DNA of 64,000 nucleotides, taken from the NCBI RefSeq assembly GCF_001426745.1, contig NZ_LMFI01000010.1, positions 849,722 to 913,721 on the forward strand, in the 5' to 3' direction. This document shows positions 15,030-50,669 of the stretch, one piece after another (the stretch's first letter is position 1; every line of letters starts with the position of its first letter). Made by a program: the position numbers and the translations under genes. The notes beneath the pieces are model-generated. The model was not told the origin of the DNA. It searched no databases and was given only the letters and a program-made list of their open reading frames with translations. This DNA is from Nocardioides sp. Root140. GTDB taxonomy: Bacteria > Actinomycetota > Actinomycetes > Propionibacteriales > Nocardioidaceae.

Positions 15030-16225
15030 ACGACGTCCTGGCGCAGGTCTGGCGCGACGAGTGGGGCCGGTTGCTGGCCCTGCTCGTCACCCAGTACCGA
15101 CGCCTCGACCTGGCCGAGGACGGTCTCGGCGACGCCTTCGAGGCCGCGGCACGCACCTGGCCGGGCGACGGCGTACCGACGAATCCGCCTGCCTGGCTGT
15201 TGACCGCAGCCCGTCGACGCATCCTCGACCGGCTGCGTGCGGAGGCCGTCGCGGCGCGCAAGCTGCCACTGCTGGCGGTCGATTCCGACGCGGAGGAGTT
15301 GGTGGACATGGACGAGGTGCCCGACGAGCGCCTGCGCCTCGTGTTGCTGTGCGCCCACCCCTCCCTGCCGCGCGAGGCGGCCGCCGCGCTGACCCTGCGG
15401 CTGGTGCTGGGCGTGTCGACCGCCGACATCGCCCGCCTCTTCCTGGTGAGTACGCCGACCATGGCCGCACGTCTCACGCGGGCAAGGAAACGGCTCGCGA
15501 ACGAACGCTTCGAGGTGCCCGACGACCTGGCCGAGCGGGTCGGGGTCGTGGCCGACGTGGCCTACCTGGCGTTCACCGCCGGCTACGCGCCCGGGTCCGG
15601 CGCCGACGTGCTGCGCGCGGATGTGTCGGGTGAGGCGATCCGACTGGTGCGCGTGTTGCGCTCCCTGCTGCCGGGCTCGGGCGACTGGTCCGACCTCGAC
15701 GCACTGCTGGCACTGATGCTGATCCAGCACTCGCGGCGCGACGCCCGGGTGGCCGACGGGGAGTTGGTGCTCCTGCCCGACCAGGACCGCACCCGATGGC
15801 ACCGGGACGAGATCGCGGAGGCCCTGCAGCTGTTGCTCCCGTTGGCCATGCGGCCCGCCACCTCCTACCTGCTCCAGGGGTTGATCGCCGCCGAGCATGC
15901 GGTGGCGGCGACCGCGGCCGACACCGACTGGTCGCGGATCGCCGGCCACTACGCCGAGCTCGAGCACCTGACCGGGTCCCCCGTCGTACGCCTCAACCGG
16001 GCGATCGCCGTGGCCGAGGCGGACGGGCCGCTGGCCGGGTTGGCCGTGCTCGACGGGCTCGAGCTGCCCGGTCACCGCCTGCCGGGCGCGCGGGCCGAGC
16101 TGCTGTCCCGCGCGGGGCGGACCGAGGAGGCCCGCCAGGAGTTCGACCGGGCGATCGACCTGTGCGACAACGACGCCGAGCGCTCCCACCTCGTCGCACG
16201 TCGCGCAATGTCCGATACTCCCTGA
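15026..16225 (+). CDS. ECF42-group RNA polymerase sigma factor with C-terminal TPR-like extension
   Basis: A 399-residue ECF sigma factor. Region sigma-2 lies at about residues 8-75 (RRLDLAEDGLGDAFEAA, then NPPAWLLTAARRRILDRLR). Region sigma-4 follows (LRLVLGVSTADIARLFLVS, then TMAARLTRARKRL). A helical C-terminal extension of about 200 residues is typical of ECF42, which works with YCII proteins and has no classical anti-sigma factor. The start is the GTG at 15026 overlapping the YCII stop. The last residues, SDTP-stop, are encoded by the first unit of a 32-bp-period repeat, so an insertion may have changed the original C-terminus. Confidence 0.85.
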   Translation: MNDVLAQVWRDEWGRLLALLVTQYRRLDLAEDGLGDAFEAAARTWPGDGVPTNPPAWLLTAARRRILDRLRAEAVAARKLPLLAVDSDAEELVDMDEVPDERLRLVLLCAHPSLPREAAAALTLRLVLGVSTADIARLFLVSTPTMAARLTRARKRLANERFEVPDDLAERVGVVADVAYLAFTAGYAPGSGADVLRADVSGEAIRLVRVLRSLLPGSGDWSDLDALLALMLIQHSRRDARVADGELVLLPDQDRTRWHRDEIAEALQLLLPLAMRPATSYLLQGLIAAEHAVAATAADTDWSRIAGHYAELEHLTGSPVVRLNRAIAVAEADGPLAGLAVLDGLELPGHRLPGARAELLSRAGRTEEARQEFDRAIDLCDNDAERSHLVARRAMSDTP

Positions 16226-16268
16226 CGTTCCGGTCCACCGATCGGGATACTCCCTGACGTTTCGGTCC
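16214..16268. repeat. Two units of the 23-bp / 32-bp-period repeat (family B)
   Basis: Two copies of the 23-bp repeat beginning GATACTCCCTGACGTT occur at 16214-16236 and 16246-16268, exactly 32 bp apart. The same repeat flanks the gene at 48348-49481. The first unit contains the stop codon of the ECF42 gene; the array fills the gap between that gene and the convergent SDR. Confidence 0.9.
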
Positions 16269-16282
16269 TCGCGTCAGGTGTG

Positions 16283-38346: not shown

Positions 38347-38427
38347 GTCGAGAAACCTACCCGCGGTACGCCGGATCCGTGCGTGACGCACACCACGCGG
38401 GACGTCCCCAGCCATTCCAGTCGCTCG

Positions 38428-38480
38428 TGGGTGGCTGGTGGCTCTTCATCGCGCTGCGAACAGCCACCAGCCACCAACCA
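38428..38480. repeat. Left terminal hairpin of element A
   Basis: GGTGGCTGGTGGCT (38430-38443) and AGCCACCAGCCACC (38462-38475) pair perfectly. The loop begins CTTCAT and contains a small inner stem TCGC/GCGA. An inverted copy of the whole hairpin, loop included, lies at 39661-39714. Confidence 0.88.
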
Positions 38481-38521
38481 AGCCCACCCCCGCTGGCCCT
38501 TCCTCCGTTCGGCCCTGTCCA

Positions 38522-39568
38522 TCAGATCGGCGGAGGTCGCCGGTCCAGAATCTCATCAAGAGTCAGTTCGGGCGTGAGATGAAGCGGACGAACGAGGGTC
38601 CAGGCGCGCGGCATACGCGACGTTGCTGCCCGCGCACGGGCGGCATGCATGCGCGGCACCATGATCTTGGCCGCCAGTTCGCCCCGCACCGCGGCGAAGT
38701 ACTCGAGTCCATGGTTGCGCAGTCGCTGCTCTCGCGTGTTGTCCCTTCCTCGCTGAGGATCCGCGTCGTGATGGATCCCGTCGTACTCCCCGACCACTCC
38801 GGCCACGCGGTCGAGCAGGTCGGGGCGGGCCAGGAATCTGCCGCTCGAGCTGTAGAGGGTCGGGTTGCACAGCGGCCGCGGCAACCCCGCGTCCACCTCC
38901 CAGATGAGACGCATCTGCACCTCTTGGCGCGATTGGGCACCCTCTGATGCCAGCTCCAGCGCGGCGCGGAGAGTCGGCATCCCCACTCGTCGGGGCGCGG
39001 CATCGACATAGACGCCGAAGCGGGCGAGCGAGGTGAACTGCGCGTGGCACGCCATGTCGATCACCTCGACCGCCAGGCGTACGTCGTCGCTGTGCCGCAT
39101 CTCGTCCTGGATCGCTCGGTCAACGCTGGTGCAGCGGGCGCCCAGCCGGTGGACGATCTCATCTGGCCTGAATCCCTCGCGATGTACGCGCGCTCCTTCC
39201 AGCTCACGGCGATGGCGCCCGCGGGCAGCTACCACCGGTACAGGGAGTTCCCGCATGCGGTGGTCACGGCCGTCGAAGTACGGAGCACCGGCCAGGCGCA
39301 GGCTGGCCCATCCGGTGATCGCGGCGTCCGGGGGCAGCGCCGCCGCAACCTCGACGATGCGTTGGGTCGTCTCGTCGTAGATCGCGTCCGAGGGGACGAA
39401 CCGGTTCGGCGACGTACGCCGCCAGTGCGGGCCACGCGACTGGCCGTATGTCGGGCCCCGCTGCCCCGACGGGTCCACGGCCACGGGTACGACGAATTGC
39501 GGGCGCGCGATCCGGGGCGGTGGATCGAGCATCCATGCGCCTTCGAGGGGATCCTTCGGCAAAGCCAT
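38522..39568 (-). CDS. Unknown protein with AbiEi-like N-terminal and DUF559/PD-(D/E)XK-like C-terminal region (element A)
   Basis: A protein of about 348 residues and unknown function, paralogous to the gene at 48348-49481. Shared blocks include WRR-S, then GITGWASLR or AITGWASLR, and WEVDAGLPRPLCNP. The C-terminal block PDLLDRVAGVVGEYDGIHHD has the D...E-x-D pattern of DUF559/Vsr-like nucleases. The N-terminal part resembles AbiEi-type wHTH proteins. The GC content looks lower than in neighbours. It lies between two inverted hairpins. The start is uncertain: ATG 39568 is chosen; GTG 39592 has GGAGGA further upstream, and the open frame reaches into the right hairpin at 39712. Confidence 0.7.
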   Translation of the reverse strand: MALPKDPLEGAWMLDPPPRIARPQFVVPVAVDPSGQRGPTYGQSRGPHWRRTSPNRFVPSDAIYDETTQRIVEVAAALPPDAAITGWASLRLAGAPYFDGRDHRMRELPVPVVAARGRHRRELEGARVHREGFRPDEIVHRLGARCTSVDRAIQDEMRHSDDVRLAVEVIDMACHAQFTSLARFGVYVDAAPRRVGMPTLRAALELASEGAQSRQEVQMRLIWEVDAGLPRPLCNPTLYSSSGRFLARPDLLDRVAGVVGEYDGIHHDADPQRGRDNTREQRLRNHGLEYFAAVRGELAAKIMVPRMHAARARAATSRMPRAWTLVRPLHLTPELTLDEILDRRPPPI

Positions 39569-39660
39569 GACGACGAGCATCTCCGAAGTCACGGGGTCGC
39601 GGGCCCGTCCTCCACAGGCCACGGTGGGCTGAGACTGCTCCACCGACAGATCCACCCCTT

Positions 39661-39714
39661 CGTTGGTGGCTGGTGGCTGTTCGCGGCGCCATGAAGAGCC
39701 ACCAACCACCAACG
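39661..39714. repeat. Right terminal hairpin of element A
   Basis: CGTTGGTGGCTGGTGGCT (39661-39678) pairs with AGCCACCAACCACCAACG (39697-39714) with one G-T. The 18-nt loop is the reverse complement of the left hairpin's loop with three differences. Confidence 0.88.
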
Positions 39715-39772
39715 AAGCCCGCGATCGCCCGACCGGGCGCTCGCCGACTGCCCGAGTGCGCGGGAATCCTTC

Positions 39773-47404: not shown

Positions 47405-48184
47405 ATGGCCAAGAGCATCGACGTCAAGGACCTCGACATCTACTACGGCGACTTCCTCGCCGTACAAGGCGTCAACGTCCACATCAAGGCACGGTCGGTG
47501 ACCGCGTTCATCGGACCGTCCGGTTGTGGCAAGTCCACCGTGCTGCGGTCGCTGAACCGCATGCACGAGGTGATCCCGGGCGCCCGGGTCGAGGGCAAGG
47601 TCGTCGTCGACGGCCAGTCCTTGTACGGCGCCGGGGTCGACCCGGTCGCCGTACGCCGGCAGATCGGCATGGTCTTCCAGCGGCCGAACCCGTTCCCGAC
47701 GATGTCGATCTACGAGAACGTCCTCGCCGGCAACCGGCTCAACGCCCGCAAGCTGAAGAAGCCCGAGGCCGACACGATCGTCGAGAAGTCGCTGCGTGGC
47801 GCGAACCTCTGGAACGAGGTGAAGGACCGCCTCGCCAAGCCCGGCATGGGCCTCTCCGGCGGCCAGCAGCAGCGCCTGTGCATCGCCCGCGCGATCGCCG
47901 TCGAGCCCGAGGTGCTGCTGATGGACGAGCCGTGCTCGGCCCTCGACCCGATCTCGACCGCGGCCGTGGAGGACCTGATCCACGAGCTCAAGTCCGACTA
48001 CACGATCGTGATCGTCACCCACAACATGCAGCAGGCCGCCCGCGTCTCCGACGACACCGGCTTCTTCAACCTGAAGGCGGTCGGCGAGCCCGGTCACCTG
48101 GTGGAGTTCAACCCCACCACCAAGGTGTTCTCCAACCCCGACGAGTCCGCCACCGAGGCCTACATCTCCGGCCGCTTCGGATAG
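47405..48184 (+). CDS. pstB: Phosphate ABC transporter ATP-binding protein
   Basis: A 259-residue ATPase: Walker [10 protein letters not shown], signature [16 protein letters not shown], Walker [15 protein letters not shown], and switch His in VTHNMQQA. The [12 protein letters not shown] block is diagnostic for PstB. Its stop codon TAG lies inside the first unit of the family B repeat array that begins element B. Confidence 0.95.
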
Positions 48185-48330
48185 TCCCTGACGTTTCGGC
48201 CCTTCCGTCGCGATACTCCCTGACGTTTCGGCCCTTCCGCCGCGATACTCCCTGACGTTTCGGCCCTTCCGCCGCGATACTCCCTGACGTTTCGGCCCTT
48301 CCGCCGCGATACTCCCTGACGTTTCGGCGC
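48180..48330. repeat. Family B array, left side of element B (five units, 32-bp period)
   Basis: Five copies of the 23-bp repeat beginning GATACTCCCTGACGTTTCGG start at 48180, 48212, 48244, 48276 and 48308. Spacing is exactly 32 bp. The first has GATAG, which supplies the pstB stop. The 9-bp spacers are nearly identical (TTCCGCCGC). Confidence 0.93.
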
Positions 48331-48347
48331 TTCCCTGAACGCTTGTC

Positions 48348-49481
48348 TCACGAGATCTTGCGCCGAAGGCGCAACAGGGCAACGCGCTCGGACTCGCCAA
48401 GGTTCCGTCGCTCTTCGACCGTGAAGGTCGGGATCCACCACCTCGGCAGCTCGGTCGTCCAGTGCCGACGGGACGGCGCCGCGAACTGCGCCCGTTCTCG
48501 CGTCGCCCGCATCCGACCGGCCAACGACTCGCGAAAAGTGGTCTCACCGCGACGCACCGTCAAGCATTCGAGCCCCACGTTGCGAAATCGCTCAAGCCGG
48601 GTAGCGTCGATGACCTCTCTGCCCGGTGCCAGATGGACGCCCCCGTCGTACTCCATGACCACTCCGGCGACCTCGTCCAGCAGGTCGGGCGTGCCGAGGT
48701 GATTGCCGTACCTGTCGAAGATGGGTCGATTGGCCATCGGCTTCGGAAGCTCTGCGTCGATCTGCCAGACCAGGCTTGTCCGCTGCTCCCAGGGCGACCA
48801 TGAGTTTTCTTCCAGGAACGCGCTGGCCTCGCGCAGCTGGGGCGCCCCCGTCCATCCCGGATGCTCGAGCCCATGCGCGCAGATCTCGTGTGCCGTGACC
48901 AGGTCGGAGTACGCCGCCATACTGAACGCCACGGACGCTTCCCGCATGCTGGTCGCATATCGCATCTCGTGCGTCAGGGACCGCACCGGATCGGTCGTGA
49001 CCACACCGTCGACGACCGTGAGATCTGTCGGCAAGAGCCGCTCCTCGACCACCACGAATCCTGGCTGGCTCCGGATGTTGCGGTCACCAGTCAATATCCG
49101 GATGGGCAGCTGGGTCGCACCGTCAGGTGCGTACCCGTCGAACCACACCGCGCCATACCAGCGCAGACTCGCCCACCCGGTGATGCCCGCCCCGAGCGGC
49201 ATGACCACGCTCGCTTCCACGATGCGCTGCTCGGCCCGATCCCCGTCGACGTACGCAGGCACGTAGAAGCCACGCGATGAGCGACGCCAGCCCGGACCAC
49301 GCGCTGCCTTCGCCGAAGGCCCACCCGGCCGCCCTACTCGGACCGGGAGGACCAGGCCATCCCGGTGAGCAGCCGGCCAGGGACACGTCAGATCACCACC
49401 GTGGGAGACGGCGTACGGCGGCCCTCCCCGCGCACCGATCGAGGGATGTGCTTCCTGTTCGCGCATGCACGGATGGTGCAC
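48348..49481 (-). CDS. Unknown protein with AbiEi-like N-terminal and DUF559/PD-(D/E)XK-like C-terminal region (element B)
   Basis: A protein of about 377 residues and unknown function, clearly paralogous to the gene at 38522-39568 but with a divergent sequence. Blocks in common: GWRRSSRGFYVP, GAGITGWASLRWYGAVWFDG, SPWEQRTSLVWQIDAELPKP and the C-terminal PDLLDEVAGVVMEYDGGVHL, where Asp, Glu and Asp fit a DUF559/Vsr-like active site. It lies between inverted family B arrays. The exact start is uncertain; ATG 49481 is the longest, ATG 49466 the next. Confidence 0.72.
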   Translation of the reverse strand: MHHPCMREQEAHPSIGARGGPPYAVSHGGDLTCPWPAAHRDGLVLPVRVGRPGGPSAKAARGPGWRRSSRGFYVPAYVDGDRAEQRIVEASVVMPLGAGITGWASLRWYGAVWFDGYAPDGATQLPIRILTGDRNIRSQPGFVVVEERLLPTDLTVVDGVVTTDPVRSLTHEMRYATSMREASVAFSMAAYSDLVTAHEICAHGLEHPGWTGAPQLREASAFLEENSWSPWEQRTSLVWQIDAELPKPMANRPIFDRYGNHLGTPDLLDEVAGVVMEYDGGVHLAPGREVIDATRLERFRNVGLECLTVRRGETTFRESLAGRMRATRERAQFAAPSRRHWTTELPRWWIPTFTVEERRNLGESERVALLRLRRKIS

Positions 49482-49551
49482 CGAACCGGCAATCTCTCGC
49501 TCGCGTCATCCACAGGTACGCCGGCCGCACTGCGAGAACAACCTTGGTCGA

Positions 49552-49638
49552 GGGCCGAAACGTCAGGGAGTATCCCGAAGCTGGGGCCGAAACGTCAGGG
49601 AGTATCCCGAAGCTGGGGCCGAAACGTCAGGGAGTATC
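49552..49638. repeat. Family B array, right side of element B (three inverted units, 32-bp period)
   Basis: Three copies in reverse orientation (starting GGGCCGAAACGTCAGGGAG) lie at 49552, 49584 and 49616, again exactly 32 bp apart. The 9-bp spacers (CCGAAGCTG) differ from those of the left array. Confidence 0.93.
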
Positions 49639-49655
49639 GAGAAGGGGGAAGCAGG

Positions 49656-50669
49656 TCAGCCGATGAAGATCTCGAGGGGGAAGTGGAGCAGGTAGTAGCA
49701 GATCACGGCGGCGAGGCCGGCCATCGGGAAGGTGAGCACCCAGGCCGTCACGATCGACTTTGCCACGCCCCAGCGCACGGCCGAGAAGCGCTTGGTGGCG
49801 CCGGCGCCCATGATCGCGGAGGTGATCGTGTGGGTCGTCGAGATCGGCGCGTGGAACGCGAACGCGGTCGTGTAGAGCACACCCGCACCGACCATCTCGG
49901 CGGAGAAGCCGCGCGGCGGGTCGAGGTGGATGATCCGGCGGCCGAGGGTGCGCATGATGCGCCAGCCACCGGAGTAGGTGCCGGCCGAGATCGCACCGGC
50001 GGCCGCGATGACCACCCAGAGCGGCAGCTCGTCACCGGCCGCGGCATGCCCGCTGGTGACCAGGGCCAGGAAGATCACGCCCATCGTCTTCTGCGCGTCC
50101 TGGAGGCCGTGGCCCAGGGCCAGGCCGGCCGCCGAGACGGTCTGCATCAGGCGGAAGCCGCGGTTGACCTTGTGGGGGTTGGCGCGACGGAAGAGCCACA
50201 TGATCAGCAGCATCACCAGGAACGCGGCGACGAAGCCGAACAGCGGCGAGAGCACCATCGGTATGAGCACCTTGTCGATGATCGTCTTCCACGAGACCGT
50301 GGCGCCGCCCACGAGCGCGGCGCCGACGAGGCCGCCGATCAGGGCGTGGGAGGACGACGAGGGCAGCCCGAAGTACCACGTGACGAGGTTCCACACGATC
50401 GCCCCGAGCAGGCCGGCCATCACGATGACCAGCCCGTGTTCGACGTCGAACCCACTGGTGTCGATCACGTCGCTGACCGTGTGCGCGACCTCCTGGCCGA
50501 GCAGCGCGCCGACGAAGTTCATCACCGCGGCGAGGATCAGGGCGACGCGTGGGGTCAGCGCACGGGTCGAGACCGACGTGGCGATCGCGTTCGCCGCGTC
50601 GTGGAAGCCATTGGTGTAGTCGAACGCGAGGGCGACGACGACCACCGCGATGACAATCGCGAGTTCCAT
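49656..50669 (-). CDS. PiT-family inorganic phosphate transporter
   Basis: A 337-residue permease with about ten membrane segments. Both PiT signatures are present: FDYTNGFHDAANAIATSVST near the N-terminus and PISTTHTITSAIMGAGATKR near the C-terminus. It is a low-affinity metal-phosphate or phosphate:H+ symporter, complementing the high-affinity Pst system. It follows the DUF47 gene with 4 nt between, an arrangement seen in many bacteria. Confidence 0.92.
   Translation of the reverse strand: MELAIVIAVVVVALAFDYTNGFHDAANAIATSVSTRALTPRVALILAAVMNFVGALLGQEVAHTVSDVIDTSGFDVEHGLVIVMAGLLGAIVWNLVTWYFGLPSSSSHALIGGLVGAALVGGATVSWKTIIDKVLIPMVLSPLFGFVAAFLVMLLIMWLFRRANPHKVNRGFRLMQTVSAAGLALGHGLQDAQKTMGVIFLALVTSGHAAAGDELPLWVVIAAAGAISAGTYSGGWRIMRTLGRRIIHLDPPRGFSAEMVGAGVLYTTAFAFHAPISTTHTITSAIMGAGATKRFSAVRWGVAKSIVTAWVLTFPMAGLAAVICYYLLHFPLEIFIG

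Follow-up and report, generated by a model that had tools for sequence, protein, structure and literature searches.

Nuclease-like genes of Nocardioides and other actinobacteria framed by matching hairpins: probable parent loci of a REPIN-like repeat system

Within a 64,000-nt stretch of the Nocardioides sp. Root140 genome (hereafter the window), a gene encoding a nuclease-like protein (gene A) lies between two matching hairpins, an arrangement that recurs around related genes in other genomes. For the two hairpin types that were counted, dispersed copies are abundant only where a family gene framed by that type is present. As a probable explanation, the gene with its hairpin pair is a parent locus for a REPIN-like repeat system whose enzyme is unrelated to RAYT. 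In this reading, the partnership between gene and repeat is a matter of observation, while binding, cutting and copying are steps that we infer.

Element A comprises two copies of a 58-nt near-palindrome, at 38425–38482 on the 3′ side of gene A (left) and at 39658–39715 on its 5′ side (right), which are 91% identical as inverted copies and fold at −37.0 and −42.7 kcal/mol, respectively. The two matching hairpins that the preliminary description placed around the gene are therefore real; the arms of 14 and 18 bp that it gave are present, but are imperfect and somewhat longer. The longest listed ORF of gene A (38522–39712, minus strand, TTG start) does extend into the right hairpin, as had been noted, but an alignment of paralogues, read by eye, suggests a true start near 39568 (MALPKDP), in which case the right hairpin is probably upstream of the gene and untranslated. 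From this likely start, gene A (38522–39568, minus strand) would encode a 348-aa AbiEi-like plus Vsr-like nuclease protein, an assignment drawn from the ORF, the alignment start, the fold and invariant residues. Motif TGGTGGCTGGTGGC (at most one mismatch) has four matches in the window against 0.06 expected, and within the 5.43-Mb genome exact matches to the arm GGTGGYTGGTGGCT are confined to the four arms of element A. Allowing one mismatch raises the total for this arm to 20, near the 16 of a reversed-pattern control; the A-type hairpin has about three relatives, and its dispersal is weak.

Pfam returned only GP68 for the protein of gene A, below the cut-off, and nothing for that of its paralogue B; among 42 relatives there were matches to DUF559 (6/42), MTES_1575 (REase; 5/42) and AbiEi_4 (4/42). 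Over about residues 211–317, an AlphaFold2 model of A (pLDDT 91.0) aligns with the domain of the homing endonuclease I-Bth0305I (Z 11.2; 94 residues aligned at rmsd 3.0) and with Vsr (Z 9.4; 98 residues at rmsd 2.8). Residues 26–208 align with the AbiEi antitoxin 6y8q (Z 7.1, rmsd 5.0, 162 aligned), in a Z range where common arrangements may score, and Rv2827c gives Z 6.2. A first-pass Foldseek search with the model had no hits that passed E ≤ 0.001, which leaves the second-look structural aligner as the basis of the fold claim. Residues E216, D250, G257, E261, D263 and G264 (numbered from 39568) are invariant in the 42 relatives, and the A family has, as modelled, a predicted PD-(D/E)XK-like fold with conserved acidic residues E216, D250, E261 and D263. 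Pfam matches in relatives, the model and the structural alignment all support the layout of an AbiEi-like N-terminus and a DUF559/Vsr-like domain first proposed from the sequence.

A collection scan gave at least 42 relative loci with organism names; those listed are mostly from Nocardioides and kin, but also from Kribbella, Cellulomonas, Cellulosimicrobium, Nocardia, Rhodococcus, Prescottella, Nakamurella, Corynebacterium, Curtobacterium and a Chloroflexi MAG. Flanks were compared at 44 of 46 loci (40 of the 42 listed relatives and the four of the Root140 genome); L100 and L104, which contig ends truncate, were excluded, and L107 and L108, with broken frames, were used by coordinates only. 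By inverted score alone, 31 of the 44 loci exceed the maximum (34) of 975 shifted same-locus windows, although one of the 31 (L096) is doubtful, with distant positions that probably match by chance. These shifted windows, together with reversed-pattern motif counts, rule out chance or a generic GC-rich feature. The inverted score is the higher in only 16 of the 31 loci, so hairpin orientation is mixed in the core family, whose near-palindromes frame genes in either orientation; Kribbella L103 and Rhodococcus L115 score high only in direct orientation. Mirror-image placement thus holds at element A and is ruled out as a rule for the core family. The test showed nothing at L112 (Rhodococcus). 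Gene D of the Root140 genome fell below the cut in the shifted-window test and passes the core-gene test described below with other boundaries, and L114, also below the cut, scores 93 with wider flanks.

A profile search of 38 genomes set apart a core tier, 67 genes from 35 genomes that all score above 240 bits, from the divergent genes, the best of which reaches 174 bits. Flanking hairpins score at least 40 for 64 of the 67 core genes (35 same-genus genomes); gene C of Root140 (38) and G074 L304 (32) fall below this value and show hairpins by eye, and G081 L297 (24) shows no flanking hairpins by eye. In the divergent tier, all 22 genes sampled from a longer set, mostly for intact frames, score at least 40, and 20 of the 22 have inverted copies. 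A mismatched-pair control reaches 40 in 5.7% (core) and 11.5% (divergent) of cases because genomes share repeat types and neighbourhoods. The divergent AbiEi/DUF559-type genes (L306–L325, L305, L068) have longer, more complex repeats, often with CCCCGG...CCGGGG stems. The preliminary description had named two findings that would count against its reading, namely closest relatives that all carry the gene in the same location but lack hairpins, and hairpins that have no link to the gene family. Neither was encountered: relatives do carry hairpins, and at framed loci across genomes the hairpins are tightly linked to the family.

Hairpin similarity goes with protein similarity. Left and right hairpins of one unit have a similarity of 0.53, against 0.14 with other units, and for 43 of 65 genes the closest relative by protein ranks in the top five by hairpin; the Mantel correlation between protein and hairpin (two of the 67 core genes left out) is weak at 0.19. 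The alternative that hairpin type is set by the genome and not by the gene is unsupported, the hairpins of within-genome paralogues being no more similar than those of genes from separate genomes (0.15 in each case). The left and right copies at a parent gene are 92% identical in their outer columns and 64% in the central ones, figures to be read with the caveat that local alignment inflates the ends. The idea of a plasmid- or phage-borne element was rejected on a single partial, 33%-identical match among 72,556 plasmid records and the absence of any match among 50,697 phage records.

Searching the Root140 genome with protein A recovered three further full members (B, C and D), 36–51% identical to A, and one distant partial match; there are no near-identical gene copies. 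All four core-family genes are framed by hairpins, each by its own sequence, gene D by a third type and gene C by a fourth. Gene B lies in the window, 10 kb from A, between pstB and pit (48348–49424, minus strand; listed ORF to 49481), and its product is 36% identical to A. To its left the B repeat, with a GATACTCCCTGACGTTTCGGCCC core and a period of 32 nt, stands in a tandem array of five (48179–48331, plus strand), and to its right are three copies in inverted orientation (49551–49645, minus strand). A solitary B-type repeat of two direct copies, with no family gene beside it, is found at an ORF end (16214–16270, plus strand), where the pair overlaps the ORF's stop codon and faces the end of a dehydrogenase-like ORF encoded on the opposite strand. 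Genome-wide, the B motif CCCTGACGTTTCGG has 58 exact and 19 one-mismatch copies and its reversed pattern none; exact copies of the C motif occur at its own locus only, along with two one-mismatch matches. One transporter-like gene (EamA-like by eye; L064 979–2216, G000:C11) is flanked by inverted B-type repeats, from which it follows that such framing can arise at other genes too. The possibility of a RAYT partner elsewhere in the genome was rejected, as a search for Y1 transposase (PF01797) found no match there and found matches in 5 of 14 control genomes.

Across 38 genomes, motif counts that include the framing copies tie dispersed hairpins to the resident gene. The CCCTGACG type (motif TASTCCCTGACG) has 6–87 copies in the 11 genomes where it frames a core gene and 0–2 in the remaining 27; the reversed control gives 0–3 on either strand. 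Eight of these genomes have that hairpin type in the gap between pstB and pit and hold 6–87 copies, G099 being lowest with 6 despite its framed gene. G056, G064 and G080 hold 16–34 copies though their gap is different or empty, and each carries another core gene elsewhere that is framed by the TASTCCCTGACG type. The CTGAGGACG type (motif ATCTGAGGACGY) has 12–36 copies in five genomes with that gap type and 0–7 in the other 33, among them G084, G075, G019 and G089 with 4–7 copies without a CTGAGGACG-framed gene. The three genomes that lack core genes altogether (G047, G028, G117) have zero TASTCCCTGACG and at most one ATCTGAGGACGY. Rank tests of count against framing type give 2e-7 (TASTCCCTGACG) and 1e-5 (ATCTGAGGACGY), values that ignore kinship among related genomes. 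Dispersal is clear for B and for two types across the 38 genomes, weak for A and absent for C. The existence of members without dispersed sites speaks against a role in defence, in which the nuclease would attack incoming DNA and the hairpins would mark or regulate self; a part for Vsr-type nuclease and winged-helix domains in modification-independent defence proteins has been proposed, as described in PMC3710099, but we give this explanation very little credence.

At 18 solitary sites from seven genomes there is no family gene, and 17 of them align to the parent hairpin over at least 60 columns, L268 and L276 weakly; the remaining site, L274, aligns only over 14 nt. Because the 18 were picked as paired motifs, their full length is partly a matter of choice. 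Several solitary copies lie, by eye and uncounted, at gene ends. Such positions would suit RNA elements, that is, hairpins that act at the transcript level, either terminating transcription or marking RNA for processing, with the protein binding or cutting them, and model A also has weak fold matches to mitoribosome proteins. We consider this highly improbable, however, as terminators need no type-specific sequence shared with one nuclease gene and the best structural matches are DNA endonucleases. The same positions weigh against the hairpins as regulatory sites, at which an AbiEi-like repressor with a nuclease-fold tail would bind operators at its own gene and across a dispersed regulon. According to PMC3985639, the operator in AbiEi's own promoter consists of a pair of 23-bp inverted repeats, 3 bp apart, to which the protein binds, and one hairpin does lie 5′ of gene A; the second copy, however, is 3′ of the gene, and the nuclease residues are invariant in 42 members, which makes regulation a very improbable account.

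The locations of the genes bear on whether the whole unit moves. The pstB gene was matched in all 118 genomes searched, Root140 included, and the pstB–pit gap (47405–50669 in the window) was read in Root140 and in 40 of the 42 best-matching of the 117 others; G100 and G046, which reach contig ends, were left out, G100 having shown no family gene there in a separate search. A family gene occupies 26 of the 41 gaps, 24 in one orientation and two (B of Root140 and that of G107) in the other, which suggests long residence. All 26 occupied gaps have matched framing hairpins, with uncontrolled scores of 45–120, and the hairpin sequence differs widely between species. Twelve of the 41 gaps are without a core gene, and three show neither family gene nor pit. 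Other hairpins are present in some gaps that lack a core gene (G081, G117, G071, G077), and that of G074 holds an ORF that looks by eye like a distant AbiEi-type relative. The gap is thus a long-lived or favoured site. In other species, family members also occupy further gaps in the ppk / NUDIX / phoU / pit neighbourhood (L084, L099, L092, L087), as if this region attracted or kept them.

Gene A itself lies between a hydrolase gene and ppk. In the genomes of 20 relatives, none of the matches listed for the hydrolase–ppk interval is to A beside ppk; the flanking matches are 136–292 nt apart in six of the 20, the interval measures 2.5–2.8 kb in G107, G003, G061 and G047 and ~1.1 kb in G040, and no family gene lies inside the 11 intervals that were fetched. 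In nine of the 20, no hydrolase match adjoins ppk among the matches listed. That A was not seen next to ppk in any of the 20 relatives examined, and that the genes on either side lie close together in six of them, is what would be expected of a small transposon with terminal repeats, whose nuclease would be the transposase, whose whole unit would move and whose solitary hairpins would be MITE-like leftovers; the varied places of family genes and the inverted framing repeats of 20 of the 22 divergent genes point the same way. The paralogues in the Root140 genome, however, are only 36–51% identical, none being a near-identical copy, 26 of 41 genomes have a family gene in the pstB–pit gap, core-family hairpins are of mixed orientation, and family genes are nearly absent from plasmids and were not found in phages. 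We therefore regard a transposon as unlikely, and the small mobile unit once proposed survives only in part: A is missing beside ppk in the relatives searched, but what is seen dispersed is the hairpin and not the gene.

Orthologous intergenic sites can hold different hairpin types in related species, some of which match the hairpin of the resident nuclease gene. Twelve solitary B-type sites of Root140 were looked up in two relatives, and both flanks were recovered for nine in G107 and seven in G003. At four sites (C1_848, C12_140, C11_197, C1_1130), G107 has its own variant, CCCTGACGTTCGG, the one that also stands beside its B orthologue; the Root140 B form is present at C11_182 and a decayed one at C1_504, C1_1422 carries a CCCCAACG-type hairpin, and C10_1210 and C10_728 hold other sequence. 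G003, which holds zero TASTCCCTGACG, has a hairpin like that of its own gap gene at C12_140 and C1_1299, a CCCTGAGG variant at C1_504 and only 36 nt at C10_1210; at C1_848, C1_1130 and C1_1422 it has a repeat that frames none of the nuclease genes recovered here. This last repeat (L329, L333, L349) has the core GCCGAGTCGGCACG at three orthologous sites.

A mechanism can be proposed for the REPIN-like system that we favour. The AbiEi-like winged-helix part may recognise the conserved arms as a pair of inverted half-sites, in the way AbiEi binds its operator, and the Vsr-like domain may nick or cut the hairpin or the DNA next to it. The repeats would then be spread and kept alike by repair or by copying from a second hairpin, candidate copying steps being a single-strand or cruciform intermediate or the conversion of an existing hairpin. 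The gene would often be kept at one place (the pstB–pit gap), like a domesticated RAYT. Several observations count against a REPIN-like system. Dispersal is not universal, C-type hairpins having no exact copies beyond their own locus and the A type about three relatives. Hairpins also turn up in some gaps that lack a core gene and, as B-type repeats, around a transporter gene. G099 has only 6 copies despite its CCCTGACG-framed gene, G084, G075, G019 and G089 hold 4–7 copies though they lack a CTGAGGACG-framed one, and the G003 repeat has no known parent. The Mantel correlation is weak, and the rank tests leave relatedness uncorrected. More broadly, the AbiEi–Vsr nucleases of actinobacteria could constitute a second, independently evolved class of REPIN-like replicators that maintains and renews its own hairpin populations by cutting and converting hairpin sites, so that one type would displace another at intergenic sites and types would compete for these sites in related species, a proposal that we offer tentatively and judge slightly likelier to fail than to hold.

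Among the papers listed by full-text searches of an open-access library without subscription papers or preprints, we found no description of DUF559/AbiEi/Vsr-like genes with flanking or dispersed hairpins. REP/REPIN populations are tied to one enzyme class, the RAYTs, in the parts of the literature drawn on here. If our reading is true, a non-homologous nuclease bears the same genomic signature, which would mean that repeat–enzyme partnerships arose more than once and would hint at what a DUF559/AbiEi-like group of unknown function does. Sites at which different species hold different hairpin types would then offer natural experiments on repeat maintenance in bacterial genomes.

Among known systems, a close likeness is to REP/REPIN sequences and their RAYT (TnpA_REP), in which, according to PMC2817692 and PMC8049555, the gene is framed by two palindromic repeats that have dispersed copies. 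Two framing palindromic repeats, dispersed copies of the same type, conserved ends with a variable middle and an apparent co-variation of protein and repeat are all shared, as would be the proposed spread of repeats, but by an unrelated enzyme (REPIN/RAYT as described in PMC2817692, PMC8049555 and PMC3733652). Inverted flanking copies, a RAYT trait, are the norm in the divergent tier (20/22) and mixed in the core family, whose repeats are near-palindromes. Unlike in RAYT systems, the enzyme is AbiEi-like and Vsr-like, and no Y1/HUH transposase of the IS200/IS605 type was found in the Root140 genome, so the system is not filed under RAYT, though it would work like one. Copy numbers are lower than those of REPs, which PMC2817692 puts at usually more than 100 per genome, and orientation in the core family is not always inverted. 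With Vsr, I-Bth0305I and DUF559 proteins, A shares the catalytic-domain fold (Z 11.2 and 9.4 for I-Bth0305I and Vsr), but its nuclease domain is fused to an AbiEi-like domain and accompanied by framing and dispersed hairpins; around the family we saw neither an intron nor a mismatch-repair context. With the AbiEi antitoxins (type IV toxin–antitoxin, COG5340; Rv2827c), A may share the N-terminal fold, and their 23-bp operator repeats, as given in PMC3985639, are close in size to the hairpin arms of the A family. In contrast to AbiE toxin–antitoxin loci, no AbiEii-type toxin gene was noticed adjoining A, between hydrolase and ppk, and A carries a nuclease-like C-terminal domain in place of the antitoxin arrangement.
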